Source: Allacma fusca (taxonomy: Eukaryota > Arthropoda > Collembola > Symphypleona > Sminthuridae). From it: a stretch of DNA of 64,000 nucleotides. The notes below the pieces were generated by a model, which was not told the DNA's origin, did not search any database, and saw only the letters and a program-made list of their open reading frames with translations. This document shows, piece after piece, positions 31,781-63,050 of this stretch. A program made the position numbers and the translations under genes. Position 1 is the first letter of the stretch, and each line of letters begins with the position of its first letter. The stretch spans positions 2,337,001 to 2,401,000 of the forward strand of contig OX359245.1 of the NCBI GenBank assembly GCA_947179485.1, given 5' to 3'.

Positions 31781-32357
31781 TGTTACGTTGCTATCACCCG
31801 GGTATTGATGTTGTGTGGGTAATAGTCAATGTAGCCTAGGTTCGGGCGTTCCATTCCCCTGAAGTATGGTTTCGATGTTGGTGAAACTCATGAATAAATG
31901 GAACTATTGATTCTGTTGTGTAGGTTCGTTTATAATTGATTGAGCCAATTTATTGTTCCTAGAACTGATATAATTTACACTGAACAATTAACATTTTACA
32001 CAAAATAGAATTTGAAGTCTGAATCTCTTCTTCCTGAAATTCTCCGAATTTCATGTTGCCCCGCTTGCTACCTTTTGAGATCCATCCCGGAGGGAATGGA
32101 CTCTAGGTGCGGCTCCTCTTGATGTTGCTTGCTTGAAGTCGAGATTAGAACTTGTACTAAATCTACGTGTCTTAATCTAATCTAAATCTTATTCTTATCT
32201 TTATTGTTTATTAAATAATCTGAATCATTTCCTTTCCTTTACTTATAATTATGTTATGTCAGCGTTTGGCGTCACGTAGCCTTTGCTTACGACCTTCCAA
32301 ACTATTTGCTGACGTAGATTATGCTTATTCTACTCTATTTATAATATATCCGTAACA
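31781..32357 (-). repeat. 3' LTR of element 2 (577 bp)
   Basis: Termini are TGTTACG and CGTAACA. It matches the 5' LTR at 60024-60600 except at 31856 and 31971, where the counterparts 60099 and 60214 differ. On the sense strand a TATAAATAG box lies near the start, and AATAAA occurs several times. Confidence 0.95.
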
Positions 32358-44704: not shown

Positions 44705-47680
44705 TTATACTGGCTGAGTTTGGTCACTTGAACTGTCTGAGTAACTTTCGGATGAAAATTCTCTAGTTATTTCTTCGGTTTGAGCAGGTTGAACTTTAAA
44801 AGTCACCTTCTTGCTTGTAGTTGAACTGTTATCTGAAGTGGTCGAACTCTTACGAATTGACCGTGGCTGACTCACTGTAACTTTTCCACACTTGTTCCAA
44901 TTTCGTTTTGTCACCAATTCCACTATATCGGAATCTAAATCATAACTATACTCGTCCTCAATGTGTTCTCGCTGGAGGCACTTCTTAAGCCTTTCCACAT
45001 GGACTTTCTGTCTCTTTTTAGAATTCCTAAGGTCTTGAATGATATAATTGTCTTTGGCTAAAACTTCTATGACTACAAAGGGTCCTTTGTAAGGGTGAAG
45101 AAAGCGTTCGCTCTTTCCAACTATCCTGGTTGGTGTAAAGACTCGCACTGTGTCTCCGATGTTGAATTTAACGAACCTTCTTTTCCTATCATACCAATCC
45201 TTACTGTAGTCCTGACGTTCCCTTATCTTAGCAATAGCTTTTTCTATTCTAGTAGTGGCTTCCTCAGCACTCATAAAATTTGTGTCGACGCTGCTTAAGC
45301 ACAGTTGTAAGTTAAAATCATATATAGGTTGTCGCCTAAACATCATAAAATAAGGAGTTTCTTTGGTCACGTCATGGTGACTGCAATTGTAAGCATTTAT
45401 TAGAAACGGTAAACAACTGCACCATAGTGCTTGCTCTTTTTGAGTATAATGACTCAGCATAGTGCTTATAGTCTGGACCATTCTTTCTATTTGTCCAACA
45501 CTATTATGTCTTAATGCTGTAGATGTAGAATGGTTCATGCCTAATCTGCGAAGTAATGCTTGAGTGATTTCCGCTCTGAATTCGGATCCTCCGTCACTCA
45601 GCAAGTTTTTAAACAGTCCGTATTTTAAAACTACTTTGTGAAGCAAAAATTCTGCTATCCTGTCAGCAGTTTTATCTGGAATTGCTTCTGCGATCACGAA
45701 CTTTGAAACATAATCCTGTGCGATTATAATGTACTTATTCCCTTTTATGCTAATTTGCATGGGTCCAATGAGATCAATACATAGTGCATCTCCTACATTT
45801 TCTATCCTGATTGGGTGAAGTAGTCCTGCTGGCTTCATTCTCATAGATTTAGCTGCTTGGCAACTTTCACATGACATGACATATTTTGCTACTGAGACGT
45901 TCATTTTTCTCCAAAAATAATTTTTGTTGAGTCTATGAAGAGTTTTCTGGAATCCTAAATGTCCTCCGCATAGGATCCCATCATGAGCTTTTGATAGTAG
46001 GAAATTTCTAAGTACTCGGGGTACGTATAACTTACGTCCATCTTTATGTACTATAGTAAGAATCCCTTCTCCATCAATTTCATATCGGCTATACTTTTCT
46101 TTGTCCTTCCAATTTAACGTATGCCGCATCTTTATTTTGTCCATGATGAATAAACAATCTGGATCGTCCCTTTGCATCTCCTGCATGTTATGTTCCTCTA
46201 ACATAGTAACTTGCTCTTCATCTTCAAGTATCCTACACACAGGCTTGTGTGTGGAAAAAGTATCTTTGCTCCCTTCGCACCCCTGTAGTGCGTGAGCTCC
46301 TGGAACAAATTTTATTGCTCTATTTAATGACATGTCCTCAGTTTTCTGAGCGTCTTTATTCCTTTGGTCTTCATCCTGTGAAAGACATAGTGAATGTGAC
46401 GTCTTTTTACTTGTCACAACACCCTGCCCTTTCAGAGGTTGAATCTTCCATGATCTTCCATCGGTGAATTTGATTTCACCTTTCCGGATATTTTTCCTCA
46501 GCTCTTCTACTGTCGTCGCCAGTAGAGAGTAATTATCTTCATTTTCTGGATTCTCTGTGGATATGTACGTATGCGACGGCGGAGGGTTTTTGGTTTCCTC
46601 CGACTCGCATGCTGCAGATCTTCGTTGGATATTTTTCATCCATTCATCCACGTCTCTGGAAATCTTCATCGCCTTGATCCGCTGTGGGGTATCAAGATCC
46701 GGATTGTTAACATATCCTGGACTTTCTGCATCAGGAACTTGATCAGTCTTCCTGGCAGATTGTGCAGTGTATGTCTTCAATTGCGAAATAACTTCCTGTT
46801 TGAGCTTCCATTCATCTCCTTTTGCTGACGTTGGATTCCTCCAAGTTTCTTCAAATGCAAATCTTTTCTCCTCATCTGTGGGATCGTGTCCGGATGGAAT
46901 GTGATTTTCCACACTGAACTTTTCCTGTTTCAGTGTCGGTCGGTCGCATTCCTTTTGGACGTTCCTATCCTCATCCGTGAGTACCAATCTCTTGGCCTCT
47001 TTAGGACTGGTGGGATGGGTGGGCGGGAAAGTTGAGGACTTCTTTTGTGTAGTCTCAGCTGCCTGGCTCACCAGATCCGCTGTCTCCTGATTCTTCAATG
47101 TTCGATCATGGACTTCCGTATCGGAGTCTACAATTATGGCTGGTGGTAGATGTACAGCTTTTGTTTCAGCCTCACCTGCCCCATCCATTGTTGTGAATTC
47201 CATTGTACTCCGTGTCATCTGCCCTAGGGATTTTGGTGAATCAATGTCAACCTTCCCATTGGCTGGACTTTGTGACGTTGTTGCTGTCGTTGATTTTGGA
47301 GTAGGAGACCAATCAGTCCCCATTCCAATGTCAGTGATAGTATTTCTGTCAAAATCTTCATCTTGGACTTGAGCTTTCTTTGGCGATAAAAACTCTTTCA
47401 TATCTAAATCATTTATTGTTGCATTGTGAAGCTCTATTTCTTGTATTAGTTTGAGAGTTTTCTCGTAGATATAGTCATTGGTGTATTTCCAGGTGTTTTC
47501 ATCCTCTTGTGGGTCATCCTCCCGAAATTTGTGGATTGTAATGATGTCATCTACGGATAATTTCCATTCTTTGAGCGCTGAGTAGCTTTGTGTTACTTCA
47601 TTAACACGGCTCTTTACGCTCATTGTATGGTTCTCCCAATCCGTTTCCTCCAAATTTGGTTGAGGTGCTAGAATTTCCAC
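44705..47680 (-). CDS. Integrase with a long N-terminal extension
   Basis: Integrase inserts the element DNA into the host genome. This frame is in phase with the RT frame and separated from it by one UGA. The codon at 47680 is GTG and the first ATG follows about 19 codons later, so translation may be by stop readthrough. The first 550 residues are polar and disordered. A zinc-binding HH-CC module follows (H574, H582, C604, C607), then the DD35E catalytic core (D636 in IDLIGP, D696 in LSDGGSEF, E732 in GQIER). A GPY/F-type module (YKGPFVVIEV) lies at about 870 and a Ser/Thr-rich tail ends the chain. All catalytic residues are intact. Confidence 0.9.
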   Translation of the reverse strand: MEILAPQPNLEETDWENHTMSVKSRVNEVTQSYSALKEWKLSVDDIITIHKFREDDPQEDENTWKYTNDYIYEKTLKLIQEIELHNATINDLDMKEFLSPKKAQVQDEDFDRNTITDIGMGTDWSPTPKSTTATTSQSPANGKVDIDSPKSLGQMTRSTMEFTTMDGAGEAETKAVHLPPAIIVDSDTEVHDRTLKNQETADLVSQAAETTQKKSSTFPPTHPTSPKEAKRLVLTDEDRNVQKECDRPTLKQEKFSVENHIPSGHDPTDEEKRFAFEETWRNPTSAKGDEWKLKQEVISQLKTYTAQSARKTDQVPDAESPGYVNNPDLDTPQRIKAMKISRDVDEWMKNIQRRSAACESEETKNPPPSHTYISTENPENEDNYSLLATTVEELRKNIRKGEIKFTDGRSWKIQPLKGQGVVTSKKTSHSLCLSQDEDQRNKDAQKTEDMSLNRAIKFVPGAHALQGCEGSKDTFSTHKPVCRILEDEEQVTMLEEHNMQEMQRDDPDCLFIMDKIKMRHTLNWKDKEKYSRYEIDGEGILTIVHKDGRKLYVPRVLRNFLLSKAHDGILCGGHLGFQKTLHRLNKNYFWRKMNVSVAKYVMSCESCQAAKSMRMKPAGLLHPIRIENVGDALCIDLIGPMQISIKGNKYIIIAQDYVSKFVIAEAIPDKTADRIAEFLLHKVVLKYGLFKNLLSDGGSEFRAEITQALLRRLGMNHSTSTALRHNSVGQIERMVQTISTMLSHYTQKEQALWCSCLPFLINAYNCSHHDVTKETPYFMMFRRQPIYDFNLQLCLSSVDTNFMSAEEATTRIEKAIAKIRERQDYSKDWYDRKRRFVKFNIGDTVRVFTPTRIVGKSERFLHPYKGPFVVIEVLAKDNYIIQDLRNSKKRQKVHVERLKKCLQREHIEDEYSYDLDSDIVELVTKRNWNKCGKVTVSQPRSIRKSSTTSDNSSTTSKKVTFKVQPAQTEEITREFSSESYSDSSSDQTQPV

Positions 47681-47698: not shown

Positions 47699-50275
47699 TC
47701 AGGGTTGACCTTTCAATCTCCCTGACCATGGATTTTGTCGCTGTGGGATTATGGCTTCATCTTCATCTGAGGATTGACTTTCGTCATCCGTCCAGTATTT
47801 TCCCTTATAGCTTTCCCTGGTCGTAAGGCTGGCTGCACACGCTGGTGGTGGCATTATTATATTCCTTTGAGGGATTTGTTTTTGCTCTTCCAAAGCAATT
47901 TTATGTTCCTTGACCGGGTCTGGTTCAAATTCAATCACTCGGTCCTCTGTATCCTCCAAATCGTCCTTTGTATAGGGTAATGGAGCTCTTGATAGAAAGT
48001 CTGCATCCAAGTGTAATGCTCCTTTCTTGTATGTAACTTGAAAGTCAAATTCTTGTAGTTTATTTACAAACTTACTTATTCGGTGGTTTGGATCTTTTTG
48101 TAATCGTAGGTAGCATAATGCTAAATGATCTGATCTGATTAAAAATTTTCTCAAATAAAGATATTGTCTGAATTTGCGAACTGCATATACGACTGCTGCT
48201 AGTTCTAATTCTGTGACTGAGTAATTCTTTTCTGACTGAATTAGTGTCCTCGAAGCATAAGCTATCGGATGTTCTCCTCCATCATCTTGTAGTACACAGC
48301 ATCCTAGTCCTGAAATTGATGCATCTGTATGCAGTATGCAATCCAACTCTGGGTTGAAATGAGCTAGAACTGGCTGTGTCATTAAGTTGGTTTTGAGAAT
48401 GTTGAAGGCAATTGTTGCATCTGCACTCCATTGGAAGCATCTTATGCGTTTTTGACCTTCAGATTTCCCCTTACTGCCAATCCATGATTGTGAGATGGGA
48501 CTAGCAATTTTTGCGAAGTCCTTGATGTATTTTCTGTAGAAACTGCATATTCCGAAAAATCTTCTTGCTTCTGTTTCAGATTTTGGTAATGGCACATGTC
48601 TAATAGCGTCCACCTTTGCAGGATCTGGACTGGTGCCTTCCCTGGATACTTTAAATCCTAAAACAATTACTTCAAAATATCCGAATTTGCATTTCTTTGG
48701 CTTGAACTTAAAGTTCTTGTTGCTGGCTCTTAACATCAACTCTTCGAGTGATGCTAACTTATCCAAAAGATGAATTCCATAAGAGATTACATCATCTAGG
48801 TATACCATGGCTCCTCTGAATTTGAGTGAGCCCAGCATTTGATCTGCTGCCCGTTGAAAAGCTGACGGTGCAATCTTGACTCCCATAGGTAGTCGTTTGA
48901 ATGCATATAATCCATCCTTTGTAATGAAAGAGGTTATGACTTGGTCATCCTCATGTATTAGTAATTGAAAGAAGCCTGACTCCATGTCAAGAGTGTCGAA
49001 AATTGCAGATTTTCCAAATTGCATAAGTATGTCATCTATTCTTGCTAAAGGGTAAACTTGATCTGTGATAGTCTTATTTAACGCTCGATAATCCACAACT
49101 GATCTAAATGTTCCGTCTTTCTTTTTGATGAGAAATAGTGGACTGCTGTAAGGTCCGTTCACTTCCTTAATGATGTCTGCATCTAACATCTTTTGTACTT
49201 CTTCTCGTACCTTTTGTCGCTCCATTGGTGAGCAAGGGAAAGGTTTTGCCTGAACGGGTGGATTATTTCCCGTATGGATCCGAATGGGATCAATCCACGC
49301 TGGTTCTTTTAAATCTCCCTTGTTAAATGCGAAACATTCTGGATATCTTGTCAACAATGCTCGGTACTTGGCTCTTCCTTCTTCATCGAGCTCTTCATTG
49401 ACGTCGAAACAATCAAGCTGTTCTTGTGTGAGCCTTTTGTGAGCATCACGTAATTGATTGCGCTTGATTTTGATGAGATCAAAATTTTCTTCAGCATGAC
49501 CTATAGCTGTACGTCCGTACATTGTCTGTGGGCATGGAGCTGGATTAAATACATATGCAAAAGGTTCTTCATTTGGTACTACACCTGCGGCTACTAAAAG
49601 TCGCTTGCTGGTGTAAAGTTTCTCTGATGGTTGTAAATAAAAATCCTTTTTGATGCGTTTTGGAATATGTATGGGCACCTTCATGTGTACATAGGCTGGT
49701 ATTGTGACTGCTTTTCGAGTCCTGCACATCATGTTCTTTGGTCCTTTAACTTCATGAAATGAAAAAATTGACCTGACAAATTCTATGTCGGCCTTTTTCT
49801 CTCCTACATAGAGATGAGTATCTCTAGTCATTGGAACTGTTTGAAATCGGTCACTCCGTATTTCATTATTCATGTAATCCAACGTTATTCCATAACGTGA
49901 TAAAAGATCTTCACCTATAATCATTCGTGGCTCTAGTGTTTCCATCACTAGACCTTTGAATAAACGTTTTTCACCTTCAATCATCATTGTGAATTTGGTG
50001 AGGCAAATTGGTTTTACCAATTCTGCATTAGCTACTGCTACTCGCAGAGCGCTTGGAACTTCTTTTATTTCCGCACATCTTGGTACTAAGTTTCTTTGGA
50101 TACAGGATCTTGTTGCTCCTGAATCTAGTAAAGCTGGTATCATCATACTGCATATTTTCACTTGTAAAGTTGACTTGTTGCCGTTTGATAAACGACATGG
50201 GTTGAGATCAATGATTTCTAATTCTTCGTCGTCTTTTGACTGACTTTCTACTCTAGTTGCTATAATTGCATTCAT
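47699..50275 (-). CDS. pol: Protease, reverse transcriptase and RNase H
   Basis: Aspartic protease LLDSGATRSC (Asp51) comes first, then a linker, then RT from about 360 to 590. RT has the first catalytic Asp at 430 (FDTLDMESGF), LPMG at 462-465 and YLDD at 492-495. RNase H spans about 640-765 with D651, E689/E691, D716 (RSDH) and D757 (HLDAD). Length and order are typical of Ty3/gypsy Pol. The frame is -1 relative to the nucleocapsid frame and opens upstream of its ATG, so Pol is probably made by frameshifting at 50323-50329. The integrase frame follows in phase after a UGA. Confidence 0.92.
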   Translation of the reverse strand: MNAIIATRVESQSKDDEELEIIDLNPCRLSNGNKSTLQVKICSMMIPALLDSGATRSCIQRNLVPRCAEIKEVPSALRVAVANAELVKPICLTKFTMMIEGEKRLFKGLVMETLEPRMIIGEDLLSRYGITLDYMNNEIRSDRFQTVPMTRDTHLYVGEKKADIEFVRSIFSFHEVKGPKNMMCRTRKAVTIPAYVHMKVPIHIPKRIKKDFYLQPSEKLYTSKRLLVAAGVVPNEEPFAYVFNPAPCPQTMYGRTAIGHAEENFDLIKIKRNQLRDAHKRLTQEQLDCFDVNEELDEEGRAKYRALLTRYPECFAFNKGDLKEPAWIDPIRIHTGNNPPVQAKPFPCSPMERQKVREEVQKMLDADIIKEVNGPYSSPLFLIKKKDGTFRSVVDYRALNKTITDQVYPLARIDDILMQFGKSAIFDTLDMESGFFQLLIHEDDQVITSFITKDGLYAFKRLPMGVKIAPSAFQRAADQMLGSLKFRGAMVYLDDVISYGIHLLDKLASLEELMLRASNKNFKFKPKKCKFGYFEVIVLGFKVSREGTSPDPAKVDAIRHVPLPKSETEARRFFGICSFYRKYIKDFAKIASPISQSWIGSKGKSEGQKRIRCFQWSADATIAFNILKTNLMTQPVLAHFNPELDCILHTDASISGLGCCVLQDDGGEHPIAYASRTLIQSEKNYSVTELELAAVVYAVRKFRQYLYLRKFLIRSDHLALCYLRLQKDPNHRISKFVNKLQEFDFQVTYKKGALHLDADFLSRAPLPYTKDDLEDTEDRVIEFEPDPVKEHKIALEEQKQIPQRNIIMPPPACAASLTTRESYKGKYWTDDESQSSDEDEAIIPQRQNPWSGRLKGQP

Positions 50276-50295: not shown

Positions 50296-51333
50296 TTACT
50301 GGGGCTGCGTCCCCCTCTGTGAGTTTCCCGACGGATATGGGCTAGATTGTCTTTTGTGTGGGCAATTCCTCCTCAGGTGGCCCATTTCTCCACATCCGAA
50401 ACATTTTATGTCGGTTTGGGTGGATTCTAGCGCCAGTTGTCCCGGTATCGGTTGTGACTGCTCCTGGCGGTCTGATTGATTCCTCCAGGAGTTGTTTCTG
50501 TCATTACTTTGGCTGTTCCGGTCCCTGGAGTTAGTTCTACTCCTGTTGTTATTGTTGTTGTACTGTTGGGGTCGTTGACCTCCTTGGTTATTGTTTGGCT
50601 GATAACCCTGGTTCTGGTAACCTTGTGGGTTGGCTTGGATTTGTTGTATGCCAGGGTTGGCGTACCCTGCATTTTGTCCTGGACCGTATCCTTGTTGTGG
50701 TACGTATCCTTGAGCTGGTCCATACCCTTGGGTGGGTGCATAACCTTGAAACGGTGCATAACTCTGTTGTGGTGGGTATCCTTGATTCGGATTAAACCCT
50801 TGAGGTGGCATGAAGCCTTGAGTTTGATTAAATCCTTGGCTGTTATAGCCGTTGTAGGATTGGTTGTATCCTTGGTTCATCTGTTGATCATTCCACTGGC
50901 GATTTCCCTGGTTGTTAGGGTTGTTGTTGTAGTATTGTCGGTTCGGACTTTGTCTAGATCCGAAATTTTGGTTCCTCTGAGGGTAACCTTGGTTGTTGGA
51001 GTTGTTGCCATCATTTCTGTACTGCGGCCTACTCCTGTCTTGATTATTGTAGAATCTCTCAGGTGTTGGAGATCTACCTCGGTTCCCATAATTCCTTCGG
51101 TCATCGTAACCTTGATTGTTACGTCCCCTGTCCGGGTAGTTGTTATTGTTGCTGTAACCTGGACTGGAATTTCGTGAGTTATTGAAGTTCCCCTGACCTG
51201 GACTTCGTCCTCGTTGGTCGTTAGGTCTATTTTCAGGTCTCCGATAATCCTGTTGTTCTCTTACTGCAGCTACGTTCACGACGGTTGTTTCCGTTGGAGC
51301 TGCTTTCATTCCAGAGGTCAATTTCTCTAACAT
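50296..51333 (-). CDS. Nucleocapsid-like Gag segment with prion-like domain
   Basis: Of 345 residues, most are Asn, Gln, Gly, Tyr and Arg. Residues about 165-225 consist of repeated QGY-x3-Q units (GYAPTQGYGPAQGYVPQQGY), resembling low-complexity domains that form condensates. A CCHC zinc knuckle CFGCGEMGHLRRNC lies near the C-terminus and should bind RNA. The frame is in phase with the capsid frame above, separated by one UAA and nine sense codons before this ATG. Near its end lies the slippery site for pol. Confidence 0.85.
   Translation of the reverse strand: MLEKLTSGMKAAPTETTVVNVAAVREQQDYRRPENRPNDQRGRSPGQGNFNNSRNSSPGYSNNNNYPDRGRNNQGYDDRRNYGNRGRSPTPERFYNNQDRSRPQYRNDGNNSNNQGYPQRNQNFGSRQSPNRQYYNNNPNNQGNRQWNDQQMNQGYNQSYNGYNSQGFNQTQGFMPPQGFNPNQGYPPQQSYAPFQGYAPTQGYGPAQGYVPQQGYGPGQNAGYANPGIQQIQANPQGYQNQGYQPNNNQGGQRPQQYNNNNNRSRTNSRDRNSQSNDRNNSWRNQSDRQEQSQPIPGQLALESTQTDIKCFGCGEMGHLRRNCPHKRQSSPYPSGNSQRGTQPQ
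50301..50329 (-). promoter_or_regulatory. -1 ribosomal frameshift signal for pol
   Basis: Sense-strand GGGAAAC (50323-50329) sits in the required G-GGA-AAC phase of the nucleocapsid frame. After a spacer of 7-8 bases comes a GC hairpin GGGG-n-CCCC (50301-50315). A shift by -1 enters the open pol frame, about 9 codons before the nucleocapsid stop. The same heptamer is used by some retroviruses for gag-pro frameshifting. Confidence 0.8.
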
Positions 51334-51357
51334 TTCTTGTACTTTGACAAATCTTGT

Positions 51358-54300
51358 TTAGATGGACTCCGCTCCATCTGTTTTTCGATCTTCATCGTAT
51401 TGTTTAATTCCAATTACAAAATCTGCTACCGTCTCCGCTGTCCATCCTCGACAGAAGACTATGTATTCGGATGTCAATCCTGCACGTAAGAGTCTGATTT
51501 TCTCCATCTCGGGCATAAATCTATCGACTCTATTGATTAGTGCTAATTTCGCATCTATGTATGCACATGGATCCTCATCTGTGTGCATCTTTCGCTTTTC
51601 CATCAGTGTACGTATCATTTGGTCGGTAATACTATACCTAATCAGGAACTCCTCTCTGAATTCATCCCAGTCAATGGTGTCGTATGGTTGTTCCTCATGC
51701 AGTCTTCGTTCAGCAATCCAATTTCTGATCCAATCCCTGACGGGTGGGTCAAAGATGATCTGTACGTGTTGCATCCTGGTTATGATGGTATCTCCTCCGA
51801 ACCTGTTGGTCTGAAGTTCGGCTGTTGCGAAGGCTGTCTCTGGGTCATCTACACCCGGTTTGAATTCTACTTTGGGAAACATGAGGGCGGTCATGTCGTC
51901 GTCCAGATGTCTCCTTGGAATTACTCGTACCTGCTCTTCGTCTGCAACGTCTTCGATACGTATTCCCTGATTTGGATTGATTGGTACGCATGGGTTGATG
52001 ATGTTGACGTTGACCTGGTTGAAGATGTTATTTCTGTTCACAATCTGTCTATTCCTCCAGTTGTCGAAGGCTTCAAAGTCGTGAGGGTTGCTTGAGTTGC
52101 TACTACTGGAGCTGGATGATGAGCTACTTCCTCCGGAACTTCCGGGGTCGCTCCTTGCTCTCCGTCTGCCTCCGATGTGTCTACCTCCTCTTGAGCCTCC
52201 TCGACCTGGATTTGACCTTGATTGAGATGGTCGCTGGTTGTGGGAGTTGTTGTTGTTAGCTCCTCTCGGCTGGTTTCCTCTCCCTGATCCACTTGGTCCT
52301 GGGCCTGGTGGTCTGGGTTGGTTATTTCCGATTTGACGGCGTGCTCGTAAGGGTTTACGTCTCTTTCTGACTTGAGTGAGTACAACTTGAGTTTCCGGAC
52401 TAAGGTCTCGAAGTCGGTTTCTTGGGAAGAAGTGAGTTTCTCCGGTATTATCCACAAATCGGACTTCCTCTTGTATTTCTTCGTCTCTTTCAATTGCTCT
52501 GAACGCTGCGTCGTAGGCGTCGTCTATAGAAATTCTTATAGTGAATTGACCTGGTACTTCTGGGATAATGAAGTCCTCTTCGTCGATTCCAATAAAAATG
52601 TGCTCTGTCTCTTCACTAGACTGTGCACTGTTATGCTGACCACTCTCACGTCTCGGAGTGTCTCTCTGTACTACCTGCTCTTCTTCTTCCTCGCTGGATG
52701 TGTCACTCAAGATTTCCACGTTAGAATCGTGAATTAGTCTATTCAATGCCTCTTGGTGGTCGTGTTCGTTCTCGATGTTTTCCAAGAAGCCTGGTGGTAC
52801 CCTTTGTCTGCGAACGCCGTTCGGTAGACTGATGTGTCGATGGTAAAGTCTGAAATTGGGTGCGATGTAGCTGGAGATCTGCCCTGGATCTAAAGATCTT
52901 CGGGTGATTATGTTCCAGAAGGTAATTATCGGGTGTTCACTCAGAACAATTTCTTCGTGTTCAGCTCTTGTAGCTGCAAATGCTTCAAAGTTTGAGTCTC
53001 TAGTTGGTCTGAATCTTCGTTGTATAATACCGTCCCTTCTGTTATAATAGATCAGGCGTCTCACTTGGCCTGTCCAAGTTGCTTCGTTTTCTACCCCCTG
53101 GTTTCTGAATCTGTCTTGTTTTCGGGCGATCTTAGAGTATTGTCTCACTGTTATTCTGCTTGGTACTAACTCGTCTTCGGTGGCTTCGTTCTCGCTGGTG
53201 TATACTCTGCCACTGGGTCCTGTCCAAATGTAAACTCCGTATTGTAAGTCGTCAAGCCAATTGACTGTACCTTGACTTATGGTTGGAGTTGTTGTTACTC
53301 GAGATGGTCCTGCTACTGCTGAATTTGGTCTGACGGGGACAGTCGGAGCTGTCGGTGTCGTTGGTCGGTTTGCTGACCTGGTTATGAACCTTCCGGTTGG
53401 TCTAGCTGGTACTGCAAAAGTCGTTGCTGCGCGTGTTGTTGATGCAGGTGTTGTTGTCCGTGACCTTAGGGTGTCACCTTGGACGTACGACTCGTTGCTT
53501 CTAGATGTTTGTTCCGAAGGTGATGGTTGTGGTGCTGTTACGAGCTCTCCACCTTCTATGATGGTCCTGTCGTTGTTGGTTGCTCGTTGCAGGATGTCTC
53601 GACCTCGTAAGATGTGGCGGTGTATACCCGTGCGTCCTATCGGTAGGCTGTTATATAACGAGCCTCTCGGTGATTGATAGACGGTAAATCTGTCTTGGGG
53701 TCTAAATGCCTGATAGTAAGTACATGTGTCAGAATTTCTGATGGTATTTGCAATAGTTAATGACGGATTCTGTTCTCTTAGTTGTCTCCCTACTTGCACC
53801 AATGTTCTTAAAGCTGTCTCACTAACGTCAAGTGGCGGTGCTCGCAACGCATGCACGGGTGGATGTACGTAGATTCGACCTCCCGGTGACTGGTAAACTC
53901 GGTGTACCAGTTGCTCGTTATTAGTTGCCTGGGTGGAACCTGTGTTGACGTACAACTTTGTTGTCGTTAAATCCCTTTTAACGTTAGCCTGTGATGTACT
54001 ACCAATTTGGGTGGTCTCGACCTCCTCAGTTGGTGTCTCCAATTCGTCTTGGGTGGGTTGTGGTCTAAAGTGCAGGTTAGGTTGAGTTGGTCGATTTCTC
54101 GGCGTATTTTCCGTTGAAACCTGTCTATTCTGACTGGTTGGTGAGATGTGTACGGGGTTGATTTGCTGTGTTGTCTCGTGAGAGTTGTTATGTCGGCTTG
54201 ACTGCCCTCTTTCACTTGTTGTAGGTGTGGAGCGACAGGAATTACTAGACCTCGGGGTCACTCTCGGGTGGGCCGTAGAGCTCCCTGCTGGTGTCTGATT

Positions 54301-54942
54301 ACCTGTCTGGGTTGTAGGTGATGGCGTGGGTGCTCTTGGGCTACCCTTCTGTATGGCTGTCTCGCAACGGCTGTTGCTTGGTCTCTCACGTGTCGTAATC
54401 CCTTGTGGACTGGTTCTGGGATTTAAGTTGCTATTCTCAGCACTATTAACCCTGTAATGTCGTCTCACCGATTTCTGGAAGAGTTGTGACCTGGGTGATG
54501 AGTAATCTACCTGGTTACTTTCCGTCACCTGGTTACTTGGTCTGAGATGGTCACGATCGGAGTTACTCGACTTCCGATTTCGAGGGGTTGTTAAACCTGC
54601 TTGAAGTGTCGCTGAGGCTATTGCTTGGGCAATAGCCTTGTTGATTGAGCTTGAGCTGGTATTCAAGCTTTCCGGTGAAATTCTTCGTGACGTAACGGGT
54701 TGTATGGTTGACTCACCTGAGATGGTCCTTAGCGTAGATCTAGATGCTGGTTCTAATAAACCCGTAACCGGATTCCGTGTTACTGGTGGGTTTCTTTGGT
54801 CGTACCTAAGGTACCTGCTTATGATGTCGTCAGCACTGGAGTCGATTGCACTTTGTTGGATGGTCCCGTTGTTGTTTGGAACATTGTTCTGGACCTGGCC
54901 TACTCTCGTCGCTGACTCGCCTTTCTTGTCGTTGTTGACCAA
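51358..54942 (-). CDS. Gag frame 2: long linker and capsid domain
   Basis: The frame opens after a TAG at about 54946 and has no ATG at its start. The first Met comes only about 1000 residues in (DDDMTALMFPK). It must therefore be reached from the preceding frame, with which it overlaps by about 110 bases. Most of the chain is Ser/Thr/Pro/Arg-rich and disordered. Three related motifs (YQSPGGRIY, YQSPRGSLY, WTGPSGRVY) form internal repeats, and an RG/GGR-rich basic region and a run of Ser precede the end. The last 190 residues are a retrotransposon Gag capsid domain (FATAELQTNRFGG, DPPVRDWIRNWIAE, WDEFREEFLIRY, KIRLLRAGL). Confidence 0.75.
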   Translation of the reverse strand: MVNNDKKGESATRVGQVQNNVPNNNGTIQQSAIDSSADDIISRYLRYDQRNPPVTRNPVTGLLEPASRSTLRTISGESTIQPVTSRRISPESLNTSSSSINKAIAQAIASATLQAGLTTPRNRKSSNSDRDHLRPSNQVTESNQVDYSSPRSQLFQKSVRRHYRVNSAENSNLNPRTSPQGITTRERPSNSRCETAIQKGSPRAPTPSPTTQTGNQTPAGSSTAHPRVTPRSSNSCRSTPTTSERGQSSRHNNSHETTQQINPVHISPTSQNRQVSTENTPRNRPTQPNLHFRPQPTQDELETPTEEVETTQIGSTSQANVKRDLTTTKLYVNTGSTQATNNEQLVHRVYQSPGGRIYVHPPVHALRAPPLDVSETALRTLVQVGRQLREQNPSLTIANTIRNSDTCTYYQAFRPQDRFTVYQSPRGSLYNSLPIGRTGIHRHILRGRDILQRATNNDRTIIEGGELVTAPQPSPSEQTSRSNESYVQGDTLRSRTTTPASTTRAATTFAVPARPTGRFITRSANRPTTPTAPTVPVRPNSAVAGPSRVTTTPTISQGTVNWLDDLQYGVYIWTGPSGRVYTSENEATEDELVPSRITVRQYSKIARKQDRFRNQGVENEATWTGQVRRLIYYNRRDGIIQRRFRPTRDSNFEAFAATRAEHEEIVLSEHPIITFWNIITRRSLDPGQISSYIAPNFRLYHRHISLPNGVRRQRVPPGFLENIENEHDHQEALNRLIHDSNVEILSDTSSEEEEEQVVQRDTPRRESGQHNSAQSSEETEHIFIGIDEEDFIIPEVPGQFTIRISIDDAYDAAFRAIERDEEIQEEVRFVDNTGETHFFPRNRLRDLSPETQVVLTQVRKRRKPLRARRQIGNNQPRPPGPGPSGSGRGNQPRGANNNNSHNQRPSQSRSNPGRGGSRGGRHIGGRRRARSDPGSSGGSSSSSSSSSSNSSNPHDFEAFDNWRNRQIVNRNNIFNQVNVNIINPCVPINPNQGIRIEDVADEEQVRVIPRRHLDDDMTALMFPKVEFKPGVDDPETAFATAELQTNRFGGDTIITRMQHVQIIFDPPVRDWIRNWIAERRLHEEQPYDTIDWDEFREEFLIRYSITDQMIRTLMEKRKMHTDEDPCAYIDAKLALINRVDRFMPEMEKIRLLRAGLTSEYIVFCRGWTAETVADFVIGIKQYDEDRKTDGAESI

Positions 54943-56860
54943 ATTCTAGATTTTCACGAAGTCGTCCGGATTGTATCACGGTCGTATACCTGGGTGTATC
55001 GTTGAAGAAAATCTGGCTATCCTGGTGTGCCTGGTGACTTCTCAACGACAATACCCGGTGCTCTAAAAGGTTTCGGATGACGTCTGTGGGGATGAAGATG
55101 TTGTCCCTGACGTTCCGGCCGTACTCGAAGGCACGTGTACGTAGCACCTCCCTTTCTTCCTTATTCGGATCTCTGTTATTGTCCCTTCTGTGGGTGACTT
55201 CAGCTAATCTAAGGAAAAAATGTGTCCACTGGACTGTACCTGTATAAAGATTTTGAGCTAACCTGTGATACACCTCTATCAGTTGTCCTTCCAATCCTCG
55301 AACTACCAGAAAATTTTCCACTGAGTTTCGTTGGAAGCCTGCGGTGGTCACTAATTGTTGAAATGATCCCGCTGGTACTATCACACCTGTACCTGTCACT
55401 AATTGTACGAAATTTTCTTCCACTCTTTGGATGTTATCTTGCCCTTCTCTGATCGGTGGTGACTGGTCCTCGACTGGGCCTTCCTGTTCTGTAGACTCAG
55501 ACACCCGGCTGAGCGTACTTTGAAAGCCTACGTCTCCTCTATTGGAAAATCCTGGAGATGGTCTTGATAGAAACCTATCTCGCACAAGTTGTTGTATGTC
55601 TGGTTGTTGAGAAACTGTAGTATTCGACTGTGACGATTTACGGTGGTCGCTGATGCTTAAATTTGATAACTGCTGATTTAATTGAGTAGTGACCTGGTCA
55701 CGATCACTCCCTATACTGTTATTAGTACGTGGCACTCCTGTTGGTGAGTCACCTTGTTCACTCTGTTCGGTTGACTCGTCCGATTGAGTTATTGCTAAAT
55801 TGTCCCTAAATGATGAGTGTGTACTGAGATTCCCTTGCTGGATAATCTCTGGTGTACTTGTTGCTATAGCTATTGGTCTGTTGGAATCTTCCAAATCATC
55901 CAATTCCGTTGAGCTTTGCTGATTAACCTGTTGTTCCGTTTGTCCAGTAGCTTTGCTGCACATTCCTTGACTTTGTACATCCTGTTGGGATTGTACGCTC
56001 GTGTCTTGAGGAATGTCTCCGTTGCCAACTGGGTTTGTCAAGTTGCTGACAACCACATTGTTGGGTGATTCATTGGTCACGTCTTCAATCTCACTTTCTG
56101 GAGTTGCAAAACCTTGCTCGACCTCCCCTACGCTTGTATGATTGCTTCCAGGATCCGTGAGGATTTCAAATGATGACATGGCAGCGCTACTAGTTGGTCT
56201 TTCCTCAGGTTGATTGAATTGCGACAGGATTTCCTTGATCGTGGGGTCAGCATCATGACTGACAAAAACCATGTCTCCTCTAGCATTTAGCATGAATTCG
56301 CCTGTGGCCTCAACCTCCTGGTCCTGTTGGACCTGTTGGCCCTCCAGGTTGGTTACCTCGAGGTCGCGTAATTCTCGTTGCATAGCTAGTCTGTGGAGAT
56401 TTTGTCCCTGCGCCACCTTTGTTTTTGACAACTTTGGTGTTTGCGCTGTCGATACAGTTGGTGTTCGTCTAGGACTGGTTGTCGTACCTGTCACAGGTGT
56501 TGACACCGTGTCCAAGAACACATCGATGCTTTCATCATTATTGTCAGGATTATCTCCGTGCCCCATGGCCTGCGAACCCGATGGACTTTGTGCAGATAAT
56601 GCCAGGGTTGTACTGCCGGATTCTTCCATGACTGTAGATGTCGACGCTGAAGATGTTGAAGAGAGGTCTACACCTGCCGTTGCTGTATTAGCTTTGGCTT
56701 TCGCTGCTTTCCTCTCCTCTTTCCTGCGGGCGAGGATCTCTTCCAAGCCTGTTTCATTCTGTGGTACTGGTCCTGCAGATCGCGTAGTCCTTCGAGATGG
56801 TATTGAAGGTGCAGGTGGTGGTTCCCTTCTTGATGGATGTTGGTTCTTTTCGGGTTCCAT
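54830..56860 (-). CDS. Gag frame 1: N-terminal matrix-like protein, 676 aa
   Basis: The first ORF after the leader has a true ATG at 56860. Residues 1-480 are acidic, Ser/Thr/Gln-rich and disordered. About 485-600 look folded and helical (NFLVVRGLEGQLIEVYHRLAQNLY, TGTVQWTHFFLRLAEV, REVLRTRAFEYGRNVRD) and could be the matrix-like domain. The frame ends 112 bases after frame 2 opens. The change between them would be +1 (or -2). Two AGG-C points (in GAA-AGG-C and AGT-AGG-C) in the overlap recall the AGG-C hungry codon of yeast Ty1, but no site is proven. Confidence 0.7.
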   Translation of the reverse strand: MEPEKNQHPSRREPPPAPSIPSRRTTRSAGPVPQNETGLEEILARRKEERKAAKAKANTATAGVDLSSTSSASTSTVMEESGSTTLALSAQSPSGSQAMGHGDNPDNNDESIDVFLDTVSTPVTGTTTSPRRTPTVSTAQTPKLSKTKVAQGQNLHRLAMQRELRDLEVTNLEGQQVQQDQEVEATGEFMLNARGDMVFVSHDADPTIKEILSQFNQPEERPTSSAAMSSFEILTDPGSNHTSVGEVEQGFATPESEIEDVTNESPNNVVVSNLTNPVGNGDIPQDTSVQSQQDVQSQGMCSKATGQTEQQVNQQSSTELDDLEDSNRPIAIATSTPEIIQQGNLSTHSSFRDNLAITQSDESTEQSEQGDSPTGVPRTNNSIGSDRDQVTTQLNQQLSNLSISDHRKSSQSNTTVSQQPDIQQLVRDRFLSRPSPGFSNRGDVGFQSTLSRVSESTEQEGPVEDQSPPIREGQDNIQRVEENFVQLVTGTGVIVPAGSFQQLVTTAGFQRNSVENFLVVRGLEGQLIEVYHRLAQNLYTGTVQWTHFFLRLAEVTHRRDNNRDPNKEEREVLRTRAFEYGRNVRDNIFIPTDVIRNLLEHRVLSLRSHQAHQDSQIFFNDTPRYTTVIQSGRLRENLEFGQQRQERRVSDESRPGPEQCSKQQRDHPTKCNRLQC

Positions 56861-57099
56861 ACCTGTAAACGTCCTAACTTTTTCTTGATGGGCTGAAAAA
56901 TGCTAAGGCGTTTCGTAGAGTTTGGTTTTATGAATTTGTTTTGACGGTTGTGAGAGTTCTTTTGTCAATTTCAATCCTGAAAACCTTCTTAAAACTTATG
57001 CCAAATTTCAACTTAAACCGTTTTCTAAAATTTTGCCTTGTATGCCTATGCTTATGTACTCTAGTTGTTAAACTTAATTGTGCCAATTGGTGATGATAA

Positions 57100-57540
57100 C
57101 TTGGAAAAGAAATTTTCTGTGTTTATAACCTAAGTGTTCAATCCCTGAACGTCCCTAACTCTAGCTGTGACCTGTCTTAAACTTAATTGTTTTAATCCTA
57201 ACGTTTCCAATAAGTACCTCCTGGTGTTACCACCTGAATTTCCTTAAAACCTAAACTTTTCTAATCTTAATTCCTTTAAAACTTATCCTTTCGTAATCTT
57301 AACCTTCCTTAAAACCTAACTGCTCTTAAACTTGACTCCCTTAAAACCTAAACTGTCGTAAACTTACTTTCCTTAAACTTAAACTCCTTAAAACCTATTC
57401 CCCTTAAAACTTAGTGTCATTTTAAAACTTAACCTTCTCTAAGCTTAGTCTCCTTAATCCTATCCTCCTTACAACTTACTGCTCTTAAACTTACTCACCT
57501 TAAAACTTAACCCTCTTAAACTTACTTATTTGCAATGGCT
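57100..57540 (-). repeat. TTAAAACTTA-rich degenerate repeat in the leader
   Basis: About 25 degenerate units of CCTTAAAACTTA / CTTAAACTTA (plus-strand spelling) are spaced 12-25 bases apart. On the sense strand it is a purine-rich TAAGTTTTAAGG array with almost no secondary structure potential, which separates the hairpin array from the Gag start. Confidence 0.6.
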
Positions 57541-57581
57541 AGTTGCGTCTAACTCCTTAAATTATCAGTCTTATTGTCAAT

Positions 57582-59347
57582 CAACACTCCTCACATTCGG
57601 GCCGGTGTTGCCTAAATTTCCCTAAATACTCCTGTAATGATTCCCAGAATTAATAAGGACTGTATTCCTCGCTACCAATTACCCTTCTGCCCCAAAGGAT
57701 ATGTTTCGCGTCCTAATTCGTACCTAAGAACTTCCTTGAACCGATCCTACCATCAGCAAGGCTTGTATCTGACGTAGACAGTAAAACCTGAAAGCACCAG
57801 AATTAACTGAATTCCTATCCCTATAACCAACTCTCAAAAGCCATGAGCCTGTGGTTTCTTATGCCAATTCTCTCTACTCTAGCACAATCCTTCGAGAATG
57901 GCTAATATTATGATGCACTCAAACCCATGAGTCATCTATGGAAGAAGTAATAAATATGAAAGTCCCTATGTATGGCCATAGCTGGAAACCGCATACATAG
58001 ATTTTAAAGTGAACATCCGTGCTTTGGAATGTCCCCTGTTATCCTATCCACTAGCCCATGGACCTCCTTACTAGTAATAGTCATTGCTGTTACATATCCG
58101 CTAGCTCGGGCACATTACAAACATGTACCTATATCGGTGCGTCAATCATAGCCTCTCCGATTACCTCTAGTAGGTCACAGGCTTATCGGTACTTTTGTCG
58201 GCACTCCATCCGATCACCTCCGTGCTTGGAATGACTCGAACCCTACTAAACCATAAAGTCCCTCCTAATCTTCCTAGCCTCTCGGATTCTACGTGTACTA
58301 AAACTTATATACAACAATGATTCCGCTCACATTTCGGCCCTTGAATCCCTAAAATTACGTAGATGAGAATTTTCTTATATGTATGCTTATGTACTATGCC
58401 AATGTGTCCACGCTCAATGTACCTCGGCCCTTTGGACTAAATTTTGTTTAAACCTTAATTAAACTGTCCTAATCACCTCGGTGCTCATATTCGGCCCTTC
58501 CGAGAAAATTTTGTTCGCCTTACATACTATAATCTTTAGATGATCAGATCTACCTATGCTCTCTAACTGAGCTATATAGGTTTTGATTTGCAAAAATGAC
58601 TAACTGAAATCTGATATGCTCCGTGCTCACATTCGGCCTTCCGGATTAACTTTAAAGTCCTAATATTTGCCAAAAACCATGACAAATTATGTCCTAATTA
58701 CCCAGCGCTCAAGCCGGCACTTCTGGTAGAACTGGAAAGATGGAAGAAGAAAAGAAGTTTGTGAAAGGTTTATGATAGATCCTATTGTTACCCGTGTAAA
58801 CCTACACATCAGGTAAAGAAAGTAATTTTCAGCGAAAGAGTTTTAATTGGGTTTTGCCGCCTAGCCAAGGGGCTCTTAATTACGTAATTTGGAGGTTAAA
58901 GAATTTAAAGACATTTGTGCTCAATCCCGGCCCTTCAAATGTGCTTATACTAGAAGGAGAAAAGATGTAGAGAAAGAAGAAAGTGAAAATTATTTTTGAG
59001 TTATTTACTTGAAAGATAGATCATATTTTTGCTTTAAACTAAGCTTGGAAAGTGAATTTTGAGAGTCTGGTATTAATAAAAAATGTCCTAATTAATTGAA
59101 AGATTTTTAATTGTGTTTTGGGTTCCCATCCCCTAGCCTGGGGTTTCCCAAAACTTTGAAAAGTAATTTGAAGAGTTAAAAGAATTTCAACGCTCAAAAA
59201 CGGCCCTTTTGAAATTAGGAACTTAAACTTACGAAGAGAAAGATTACTATTATACTGCGCTCAATTAACGGCGGCCCTTCAGCCGGAATAGTTCTCTTTA
59301 CAATACGAACACTGTTTATGCCTACGCTCAAGCCCGGCATTTTAGGC
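57582..59347 (-). repeat. Array of about ten hairpins with one conserved loop motif
   Basis: Plus-strand spelling: arm, YGCTCA, 3-8 bases, CGGCCCTT, complementary arm. Units: 57582-57610, 58319-58347, 58406-58437, 58477-58504, 58620-58645, 58702-58726, 58911-58942, 59184-59215, 59255-59282, 59320-59347. Arms such as GATTC/GAATC, GTCCA/TGGAC, CTCGG/CCGAG, CCAG/CTGG, ACATTTG/CAAATGT, ATTTCAA/TTGAAAT and GCCTA/TAGGC all differ yet pair; only the ninth has a 3-bp arm. The transcript (minus strand) shows AAGGGCCG...TGAGCR in the loop. Variable stems with a constant loop are the mark of a conserved RNA structure. The first unit deviates (TCCTCA...CGGGCCG). Confidence 0.85.
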
Positions 59348-60023
59348 GTCTAAAAAGACAGAAGAAAGACTTATTTTTACTGGAAGAAGCTAATTTTGGT
59401 GAAAATTTTAATGAACATACACCTACTATGTACTCTGAAAACCACAAAATACATATACGTATATGAGCAATTTTCTAATTTAAATCTATGATTTGTACCT
59501 AAATTCTGGTTAATTACTCCTGAATATTAGCTACGCCTCGTAACTACATGACAAAATTAATGCGCTCCTAAACATGAAATTCATGAACCTTAAAGAAAAA
59601 TTTGTATTACCTTATTGGACGTCCTCTTCCCCTAATTTTCCGGTTGGAAAGAGTCCCAATTTCACTGGTCACTTAAAATAATATTTCAGGCCTAAAAATA
59701 GTTCTTTTTCTAGTGCCGCACTAGGACTTCTGAACTGTTATTTGAATCCGCGCGTGATGATAATGGCCAAATTTTCTTTCTTGAGGTAACATTTTGTTGC
59801 ATGTTATAACTGCCTTTCACGAGAAGTTTCGGGTGGCCCTGGAGAGAAATGAGACATCTTCTCCTTAGCGAGCCCCATACTTCCATCCCATGAATTTTGT
59901 TTGACTAACGACCTTACTTGCTACAAAGTTTGGTCTTTTGTCACAGGGTCATCCGCAGGTCCCCGACCTACGGATCCTCCGGGTCCTTACCAAAAAAAAC
60001 CCGAAGGCCTGGCAGAAACATCA

Positions 60024-60600
60024 TGTTACGTTGCTATCACCCGGGTATTGATGTTGTGTGGGTAATAGTCAATGTAGCCTAGGTTCGGGCGTTCCATTGC
60101 CCTGAAGTATGGTTTCGATGTTGGTGAAACTCATGAATAAATGGAACTATTGATTCTGTTGTGTAGGTTCGTTTATAATTGATTGAGCCAATTTATTGTT
60201 CCTAGAACTGATACAATTTACACTGAACAATTAACATTTTACACAAAATAGAATTTGAAGTCTGAATCTCTTCTTCCTGAAATTCTCCGAATTTCATGTT
60301 GCCCCGCTTGCTACCTTTTGAGATCCATCCCGGAGGGAATGGACTCTAGGTGCGGCTCCTCTTGATGTTGCTTGCTTGAAGTCGAGATTAGAACTTGTAC
60401 TAAATCTACGTGTCTTAATCTAATCTAAATCTTATTCTTATCTTTATTGTTTATTAAATAATCTGAATCATTTCCTTTCCTTTACTTATAATTATGTTAT
60501 GTCAGCGTTTGGCGTCACGTAGCCTTTGCTTACGACCTTCCAAACTATTTGCTGACGTAGATTATGCTTATTCTACTCTATTTATAATATATCCGTAACA
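60024..60600 (-). repeat. 5' LTR of element 2 (577 bp)
   Basis: Same termini and length as 31781-32357. On the sense strand TATAAATAGAG lies close to the LTR start (plus coordinates near 60575-60585) and could be the promoter TATA box. ATAT follows at 60601-60604. Confidence 0.95.
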
Positions 60601-63050
60601 ATATGTGCACACTCCCAAAGCTGAAACTCTGTCGCAGACAAGAACTTTTTCAGATCGCTCAGCTCGCTGTGCTTCTCGGCATATACCAACTGCTTGCAAC
60701 CTACTGGAAGCTCGCAATATTACGCAATTTTAGAGTATCACTTAAAAGCGCTAATCATAATTATTGTAAACAATACACATGAATCATCAATTTAGATTAA
60801 ATTAAGTCTGGTAGTGAGAAAAACTACGTTCGGTTACAGCACTGAAGAATTTGATAAGAGGAGAATTTTAATGACTCAACTTTGTACCTATTAGTGTGGG
60901 GTTCTTATTAGGAAAAAGTAAATGGAATTGGAAGTAACTTATTGCAACAGTTTTTATATTTAACGCCAGGTGAATACTCAGAATTGTTATTGCTGAAGTT
61001 ATTTGCTCACTACTTTTTAGTAACAAGCCTTAACATCCACACGGTTGATCTTCATATTCTATAAAATATCATTAGGAAGTAAGAATTGATTTGTAGGAAT
61101 CATGGACTTTAGTAACTATAGAATGTGAAACATATTGCGCTAATACGAATTCCTTTCATTTTTCCCTTTTTAAATAATGAGTGCCTCCAGTGTCTGAGGC
61201 TACAGTTACATTATTACGGTACAACTGACTATATACAAATTATAATAACATACAAAATCATATTTGATCAGCACGTTGTGCTGATCCACAAAGGGGTGAA
61301 GCACTATACAGTGATGCAACAGCAATATTTTATAACAATGTTGGTATTAAATTAATCAAGCGATTAGTTAAATTCCACATGTATAGCCAAATATTGCGTT
61401 TGGGAGAGAACTTTATTGGGCCGGAAGCCGTTGTCCTATAATTTTTTGATGATGAATTTCCTACTACTTATGTATATGAAACTAATTGTTAGCCTTACAG
61501 TTAATAGTTCACATGTCTTATATAAGATTACTTTACCCGGCGAAGCGGGACATTAATAATAAGCCTTCTCGACAGGCCTTGATACGGGATCTATAGCCAT
61601 TTAAGGTTTTGTGAATACTCTCACAATTCTCAAGTAATTGCCCCTGTGCAAAGCACAGGGTTTTTACTAGTTATTTATTAATTAATATTAACTAGTAAAA
61701 GCCCTGTACTTCACAGGGGCAATTACTTGGAGCAAAAGACGGGCAAATGAATCGCCTAGGCCTAAGCCTATAGCCTTCCTATTTTCTTTGAAAAAATACC
61801 GCCATCGTATATAGGCCAATAGGCTGTTTCAACGAAAAGAAGAGCCTTAGTACCAAGGATCAAGTACTCTAACTGCCTGCCTATTAGCCTATATCTGTCC
61901 TAGTGTACATTGCTTGCCTGCCTATATTTTTGTTGCATAGCTTCTGACAGCGCTTTGCCAGCCTATATAGGCGATATAATTGTGAGTTTTAGATAGTGGA
62001 AGTCCAAGCCGTATGCAATGATCACGTGCAATTTGAATACCAATGTAGGGTTTTGATTAATTCTGTAGTAAACTACATAGTATCCAGTGGGAATAAATAT
62101 GGGACGTACATATACTCTGACAATTACGGGTATCAAGTAATTCCCGCCTCATTGTCAGTCCGTTTCTGCAAACGTTTTCCCAAAGATCTTGTAATCCTGT
62201 CCTAACCAATTCGTGCTTTGAGAATGTTCACCACTAACGCCTAGCCTTTACTTGAACGAACTTGTAGCGTATTGTAGTGGTGATTGCCCAGCCTAGAACC
62301 TCGCCTAGATTTATATCCCAGCTTGCCGCATCCTTGAGCCTTTGCATATTATAGGGCCTAGAATCTAGGCAGGCGCCCATGTTTGACTTGGAGAGGTAGT
62401 AGTGTGAATGTACAAATTAAAAGCTAGACGCCTTGGGAATCAAGCCCTATGGCGGAGACTTATTGTATGCCTAGATCTTGCGCGCTTATTTTAAGAGTAG
62501 CGCGAAACCAATTTGAACCATGAACGCGCGGAGGTTTAAATCAACGGACAGATGGAGATCAATAATAATAAGGATTATTTTTATTTTCATTCTGCATAGA
62601 CATATAGTATGTGCTAATTAAGTGAAACGAGACATGAGTCCAATTTAACTAAAAATGGAAAATTTGCAATTAAACCGTGATTTATTTTATGTGCCTCTAT
62701 AACGTCGTTCCCTTATAACGTCACTTTTCGGGAGATTTATTGATGTCGTTATAAAGATAGCCGACTGTATTCTGTTTACATTGAAATTTCTGCGTCAGAC
62801 AAGGCTGTCAATATTTACATTTCATTCATATGCACTCATGAATTATTCTTTACTAATTTTATACAATTGGTACTTTTAACGTTTTATTTGCTGAATCACA
62901 GGTTATAAATATAAATATATATCAATTTCAATTAAAATACTTAGTATCCCATTTTGAGTTAATTCTAATGTGAAATTGTTGCAAAATTACAGTTATGGCC
63001 ACCATCAACGTATCACAATTATTGCAGCGCCACAGAGAAGTTTCCAGCAT
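60601..63050. other. Right flank: interrupted inverted repeat and intergenic DNA
   Basis: The first about 120 bases continue the foldback site split by element 2 (GCTCGCTGTGCTTCTCGGC is inverted near 30912-30940). The rest is AT-rich with no supported gene. A frame at 61996-62205 has no features. Confidence 0.5.
61631..61729. repeat. 41-bp-arm inverted repeat
   Basis: CAAGTAATTGCCCCTGTG...TTTACTAGTTA (61631-61673) is mirrored by TAACTAGTAAAA...CACAGGGGCAATTACTTG (61689-61729) with a few mismatches and a 15-base AT loop. It resembles a short foldback MITE. No clear target duplication. Confidence 0.75.

Follow-up and report, generated by a model that had tools for sequence, protein, structure and literature searches.

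Packaging signals of retroviruses usually lie between the 5′ LTR and gag, and the CTE and RRE are protein sites formed by internal loops in unspliced RNA. According to the cited parts of the sources, the internal loop of SL1 is a major Pr55Gag site in HIV-1 (PMC5874298), purine sites are described for MMTV (PMC8096270) and MPMV (PMC7674771), and RNA viruses carry dispersed hairpins, bound by the coat protein, which have a common recognition part and differing stems (PMC6281560, PMC7793301). The array described here also sits between the 5′ LTR and gag, in the leader of a giant LTR element of the springtail Allacma fusca; coordinates are those of the window, i.e. the whole stretch of 64,000 nucleotides that was analysed. 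Nothing alike was found in the openly licensed literature on springtail LTR elements and on hairpins repeated in the leaders of retroelements, and we know of no such core among retroviral packaging signals. Clustered or dispersed recognition hairpins are already known as such; it is the motif itself which is new.

The host element and its copies

The element and the parts of it which are relevant to the array are the following:

31781-60600, minus strand: Ty3/gypsy-type LTR element, 28.8 kb
60024-60600, minus strand: 5′ LTR, 577 bp, 99.65% identical to the 3′ LTR
56861-60023, minus strand: leader, 3163 nt, from the 5′ LTR to the first long ORF
51358-54942, minus strand: ORF with a Gag capsid-like C-terminus and an RGG/arginine-rich segment, recognised by eye, without a Pfam match
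50296-51333, minus strand: nucleocapsid ORF with a CCHC zinc knuckle (Pfam, 23.8 bits)
47699-50275, minus strand: ORF for protease, reverse transcriptase and RNase H (Pfam)
44705-47680, minus strand: integrase ORF (Pfam)
31781-32357, minus strand: 3′ LTR

The LTRs end in TGTTAC..GTAACA (TG..CA type) and an ATAT target-site duplication flanks both sides of the element. We classify it as Ty3/gypsy-like because ORFs for a CCHC zinc knuckle, PR-RT-RNase H and integrase are present; based on Pfam, Gag is of the CCHC type and PR-RT-RNase H is followed by integrase. The other long ORFs have no Pfam match. One of these, of 1878 aa (37253-42889, minus strand, downstream of integrase), contains by eye a hydrophobic stretch and basic cleavage-like sites. 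The Gag frame of the window copy (50296-56860, minus strand) is split into three ORFs, and many sister copies have an open frame of ~2200 aa which spans the zinc-knuckle ORF. The sequence after the 5′ LTR, where a tRNA primer-binding site would be expected, is partly conserved in the third element family described below.

Concerning the rest of the genome, the zinc-knuckle ORF gave 117 scored matches among 266 candidates and the reverse transcriptase 53 among 2258, the window copy being 100% and the others 98% identical. Relatives of pol were sought in viral contigs and none were found; in the protein collection, homologues of the reverse transcriptase are distant (28-40% identical among the 120 matches listed), and a homology search with the Gag region returned no match at E 0.001. 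Near full-length COI copies are also seen on the chromosome-size contigs C5, C8 and C12 and on the small contig C91; those on the chromosome-size contigs suggest recent mitochondrial inserts in the nuclear genome. A COI copy on C12 shares 89% identity with a COI record from Sminthuridae (B2BS87_SMIVR).

Other sequence features of the leader include a tandem array at 57240-57526 with units of ~16 and 32 nt (TAAGTTTTAAGG-like in RNA sense), in which several GTAAGT are present and, at 57501, a strong match to the look of a 5′ splice site. A second short motif, ATTAGGAC, is found five times in the leader (57717-59092, minus strand) and once elsewhere in the window, counting both strands; TTAGG is also the telomere unit of arthropods.

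Hairpin units of the leader

The array comprises nine strong hairpins (58318-59348) and one diverged unit, u1. The units are listed with their stems, cores and covariance model scores:

59319-59348, minus strand: unit u10, stem GCCTA/TAGGC, core AAATGCCGGGCTTGAGCG, 33.2 bits
59252-59285, minus strand: unit u9, stem CTG/CAG, core AAGGGCCGCCGTTAATTGAGCG, 28.2 bits
59185-59214, minus strand: unit u8, stem AATTTCAA/TTGAAATT, core AAGGGCCGTTTTTGAGCG, 37.9 bits
58912-58941, minus strand: unit u7, stem ACATTTG/CAAATGT, core AAGGGCCGGGATTGAGCA, 38.0 bits
58700-58728, minus strand: unit u6, stem CCAG/CTGG, core AAGTGCCGGCTTGAGCG, 30.3 bits
58618-58647, minus strand: unit u5, stem TCCG/CGGA, core GAAGGCCGAATGTGAGCA, 32.1 bits
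58476-58505, minus strand: unit u4, stem CTCGG/CCGAG, core AAGGGCCGAATATGAGCA, 37.2 bits
58405-58438, minus strand: unit u3, stem GTCCA/TGGAC, core AAGGGCCGAGGTACATTGAGCG, 33.4 bits
58318-58348, minus strand: unit u2, stem GATTC/GAATC, core AAGGGCCGAAATGTGAGCG, 32.7 bits
57582-57610, minus strand: diverged unit u1, stem CAACAC/GTGTTG, 11.2 bits

Since the coding strand, and hence the RNA, is the minus strand, the RNA spelling of the motif is AAGGGCCG-n-UGAGC. In RNA sense, the strong units read as a stem, four letters that are mostly purines, GCCG, 3-8 nt, UGAGC, R and the complementary stem. The unit plan is a stem that varies, an internal loop with four purine-rich nucleotides (mostly AAGG) opposite one purine, an inner helix and a variable end loop; the inner helix is the near-invariant GCCG/UG(A)GC, with the A bulged. 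RNAalifold, run with no structure given, returned the outer stem and, inside it, a helix of four pairs (G-C, C-G, bulged A, C-G, G.U). The initial annotation had described about ten units around one shared loop. A constant part does exist, but it consists of the internal loop and the inner helix with its bulged A, whereas variation is greatest in the terminal loop; nine of the units are strong, and the tenth, u1, is not above chance in the window, where the best other site reaches 11.3 bits. The irregular spacing which had been reported stands, and a simple tandem repeat is rejected because of it and because the flanks of most units are unlike.

A further hairpin, at 58552-58581 on the minus strand (ACCTA-TATA-GCTC-AGTTAGA-GAGC-A-TAGGT), shares the unit plan of outer stem, 4-nt/1-nt internal loop and 4-bp inner helix. 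The aligned copies retain it, and L009 and L010 show changes. It resembles a tRNA D-arm; tRNA identity was rejected, as ARAGORN finds no tRNA, and the likeness is a resemblance only.

The sequence GCTCA-n-CGGC occurs 12 times in the window, nine of them on the plus strand at 58325-59338, compared with a mean of 1.49 and a maximum of 5 in shuffles of the whole window. The core alone was used to define the units, and stems were scored only afterwards. The arms of the nine units form 3-8 contiguous Watson-Crick pairs each and 46 in total; re-paired between units they form 8.2 on average, and 46 was reached in one of 200,000 permutations, which bears out the claim that the arms differ between units and are nevertheless complementary. 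A motif-blind search of the leader hairpins found GCCG..TGAG as the best common core, in 8 places; none of 60 dinucleotide shuffles gave more than 4. A covariance model of the units, one of the checks that had been suggested, scores the nine at 28.2-38.0 bits and the best other site in 64 kb at the 11.3 bits given above; since the model was built from these nine units, no more than their distance from the other sites can be read from these scores. In the whole genome, GCTCA-N(2-9)-CGGCCCTT has 829 matches and the reversed-pattern control 15; the matches of the core pattern which were listed are all on C1, many of them clustered. The folding energies of the ten single units are ordinary (z-scores -1.22 to 1.17), so stability was dropped as evidence for structure, and the evidence is the covariation. 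No known RNA family reached its gathering score in an Rfam search of 57000-60700, which gave only two chance-level matches (22.2 and 21.9 bits, with cut-offs of 117 and 90).

Conservation and covariation in sister copies

Sixty leader stretches were fetched from the genome. Of the first 20, all but L028, which was left out for its size, were searched with the covariance model, and 17 of these 19 loci carry units, each with 7 to 11 matches of at least 19 bits, so that the array is also found in the sister-copy leaders, as the initial annotation had proposed to check. Among these 19, L015 and L027 have no units, and L017 is cut. The diverged unit u1 recurs in 16 of the 19 loci (11.2-14.4 bits), which shows descent more than independent support; at its place in L009 and L010 the full GCCG/TGAGC inner helix is present.

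The site-by-site comparison includes 54 of the 60 loci and the window, i.e. 55 copies; L015, L027, L028 and L038 were left out as they have no array match, and L017 and L035 as partial. Parsing succeeded for 491 of the 495 unit instances in these copies, with all five inner pairs in 321, four in 168 and three in 2. The unparsed instances are u8 of L009, u5 of L037, and u4 of L016 and of L019. At the u8 place in L009 the core has decayed (AAAAAGCCAGTGTGAACAG) and the long stem AGATTTTC/GAAAATCT is kept; the core of its close relative L010 is intact. In none of the 55 copies did any of the nine sites show a palindrome lacking a core.

Pairing-preserving changes are found between orthologous units at several places, among them C-G to G-C in u2, two pairs of u3 in L009 and L010, C-G to U-A in u5, A-U to C-G in u6, U-A to C-G in u7, A-U to G-C of u8 in L044, and A-U to U.G in u10. 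Broken intermediates are present in single copies, for instance C.A at u7 in L029 and A.C at u2 in L019. Pairing is lost in only 7 of 1964 inner pair cells, compared with 82 on average, and at least 65, when the right arms are shuffled among copies. A further alignment, A2, contains the 150 best matches of 219, from 24 loci and with 72 distinct units; as it was fitted to the covariance model it leans towards the model's structure. In A2, 92.8% of cells are paired, compared with 74.5% when shuffled, and the covariation is 0.542, compared with 0.182 for shuffled and at most 0.124 for slid alignments. Two of five measures, both-side-changed pairs and further pair types, do not stand out from the shuffles, of which 495 and 499 of 500 do as well, since all outer pairs are variable. 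The units are hairpins under selection on pairing, which we regard as practically certain. Selection for structure had been claimed from the window copy, and the covariation among orthologous units and with the distant family agrees with it; neither of the outcomes which the initial annotation had named as refuting, a lack of significant covariation in homologous elements or the motif being absent from the leaders of sister copies, was observed.

Distant families in the same genome

L009 and L010 form a sister family, in which the zinc-knuckle ORF is 59-60% and the array region ~74% identical; they have 11 and 12 pattern-matched units, u1 included. The u7 region is doubled in both: L010 has CATTTG/CAAATG twice, and in L009 the stems of the doubled region are AACCTTTG/CAAAGGTT and AACCTGTG/CACAGGTT. 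A third family is represented by L069-L071, three of the six loci with its match pair among the places listed. Its leader aligns to that of the window in short patches only and contains two good units (35.0 and 30.9 bits), with the stems GTTGG/CCAAC and ATCGG/CCGAT. The first is found at the u2 place (49-nt patch, 78%, E 2e-4) and the second probably at the u10 place, judging from its alignment (E 0.41 with the window, 0.017 with L010). The Gag of this family is 34% identical over 809 aa, with the zinc knuckle kept. The core is conserved in all three families: the NC proteins are 37-60% identical between them, and the hairpin core is unchanged. Ten units are not needed, since the third family has only two good ones.

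Constrained letters, strand and possible exchange of cores

The mean pairwise difference among 49 close copies, including the window, is 0.017 for GCCG/TGAGC, 0.038 for the arms, 0.045 for the flanks and 0.178 for the end loop. The end loops vary ~4 times faster than the flanks; those of u3, u4 and u5 differ no more often than flank windows of equal length. The bulged A is replaced by U in 7 of 113 distinct unit cores. A slowest GCCG/TGAGC and a fastest end loop are what would be expected of letters read by a protein. Concerning the strand, the inner G.U pair is held in 148 of 150 aligned units, the two exceptions being A-U and G-C, and its retention favours RNA of the coding strand. On the RNA strand, the non-Watson-Crick cells in the four inner pairs and 40 stem alleles are 11 G.U, 5 A.C and 2 other; this distribution mildly favours the same strand.

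Eight full cores and 13 end-loop strings are found in more than one unit. The core AAGTGCCGGCTTGAGCG occurs in both u6 and u7, as does the 8-nt loop ACAGTTAT. The block changes and the common long loop suggest that cores may be exchanged between units, with selection against exchanges that break the stem; short end loops may be common to units by chance. Identical cores within a copy form 5 pairs, compared with 1.5 expected (52 of 5000 permutations), which hints weakly at exchange within copies. We tentatively entertain the possibility, as something short of probable, that this undescribed motif, present up to ~11 times, serves for genome recognition in a clade of giant springtail Ty3/gypsy elements, as an array in which core cassettes are exchanged and the stems stay and covary. 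If true, the binding site would be homogenised while the number and spacing of sites evolve, i.e. concerted evolution of a packaging or export array; the fast-changing, partly common cores would offer a case for studying exchange between repeats.

Proposed function and alternative explanations

Multivalent recognition by a protein is suggested because the units have fixed letters in an asymmetric loop and a bulged helix, free stem letters, and are repeated. Based on this pattern, the array is quite probably bound by some protein, and the reading of the initial annotation, a repeated RNA element for Gag or a host protein, is plausible. In the model which we propose, the leader would carry a multi-site RNA recognition element, in which the outer stem of each unit need only pair and the end loop closing it could have nearly any sequence. 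The recognised part would be the purine-rich 4x1 internal loop stacked on the GCCG/UG(A)GC helix with its bulged A, and, with units in tandem, the full-length genomic RNA could be bound cooperatively by several molecules of the protein. The likeliest ligand would be the element's own Gag, with its zinc-knuckle nucleocapsid and arginine-rich segment, and the likeliest role the selection and packaging of the ~29-kb RNA. We infer each of these three points, protein binding, Gag as the ligand and packaging as the purpose. Packaging is the leading reading because of the leader position, the zinc-knuckle Gag and the parallels with HIV-1 SL1, MMTV and MPMV, and we give the array a probability of roughly 0.4 of being a Gag-bound packaging element of the full-length RNA.

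Host export or splicing factors are a serious rival to Gag. A host factor, or a Rev-like protein coded by the element, would keep the leader unspliced and export the full-length RNA, in a CTE/RTE/RRE-like manner. The core stays constant while Gag diverges, and an unchanged core beside a diverged Gag and NC would suit a host factor too; retroviral RNA export elements are known, as described in the cited part of PMC4829213. YYYAG is found within 12 nt upstream of 6 of the 10 stems (random mean 0.96, P 0.0002, a post hoc comparison), and these sequences (57610-59347, minus strand) are 3′ splice-site-like. The leader contains 41 AUGs, and none of its uORFs exceeds 58 aa; ribosomes are therefore unlikely to reach the first long ORF by direct scanning, and splicing of the leader is plausible. 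On the other hand, 67 AUGs would be expected from composition, the splice sites are guesses, and four of the ten units have no YYYAG. We consider this export or splicing role rather unlikely overall, and sequence alone does not separate packaging from splicing or export control. The same long leader with its 41 AUGs could be taken to mean that the array drives translation, as a structure for internal ribosome entry or shunting, but small separate hairpins with irregular spacing, two to eleven in number, are unlike a folded entry site, which makes this role improbable.

The remaining alternatives concern the shared letters themselves. That the units act as DNA, be it as binding sites for proteins, as sites of recombination or as very small mobile insertions within palindromes, would explain why full cores and end-loop strings recur in different units, as if the core were movable. 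The arms, which differ in letters and stay complementary, are a single-strand trait, and the inner G.U would be a mismatch on the other strand; a DNA role is thus very improbable, mobile insertion into palindromes is rejected as no empty site was seen in the 55 copies, and the parallel which had been drawn with clustered DNA sites of the Su(Hw) type fits poorly, since constant pairing between arms of differing sequence is a feature of single strands. Slightly less credible still are kissing sites for RNA dimerisation. These would use the GGCC of many cores, but 20 of the 113 distinct cores lack it (AAGT in 15, AAAT in 4 and AAGA in 1), and dimerisation by GGCC was rejected on this ground; the GGCC letters also sit in the paired inner helix, and the end loops vary. 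A few real duplications exist, such as the u7 region in L010, and could point to chance or to functionless remains of tandem duplication. This is next to impossible: it is refuted by the compensated changes between copies, and the window shuffles, arm permutations, copy shuffles, genome control and motif-blind search all oppose it.

Stems that covary at three levels, inside a single molecule, from copy to copy and from family to family, are unusually direct evidence that a mobile element of a non-model animal contains a functional RNA element. With more than 100 copies in one genome (117 scored, nucleocapsid ORF), natural variants are available from which the recognition rules can be read, and these rules can be tested with RNAs of 30 nt. 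With Gag as the ligand, the array would offer a simple model of multivalent genome selection in a retroelement whose RNA is very long; with a host factor as the ligand, it would point to an arthropod export or splicing factor.

Comparison with known systems

Based on the cited parts of the sources, several described systems share some of the traits of the array. Very long ORFs and lengths of more than 20 kb are also found in the gypsy-like LTR elements named Burro of planarians (PMC6431247); these belong to another host, no hairpin array is described for them in the cited part of that paper, and the Burro-type domains MATH, BIR, ankyrin and BCL2 gave no Pfam match in the 12 ORFs scanned here. 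Yeast Ty3 has a Gag with one CCHC finger which is needed for RNA packaging (PMC4974528), and a CCHC Gag is present here too, whereas in the cited part no repeated leader hairpin is described for Ty3. The CTE, RTE and RRE are likewise internal-loop protein sites in unspliced RNA (PMC4829213), the export role being putative here, and differ from the array in sequence, position and copy number. The dispersed packaging hairpins of RNA viruses are similar in that multiple hairpins have a common motif and stems that are free to vary; in contrast, the springtail hairpins are clustered in one non-coding LTR-element leader, and their fixed letters are in the internal loop and inner helix, not in the end loop. 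The retroviral packaging signals of HIV-1 (SL1), MMTV and MPMV have in common with the array the leader position and a purine-rich asymmetric internal loop beside a helix; they differ from it in that, in the springtail elements, one unit with free stems is present two to eleven times, its role as a Gag site being putative.
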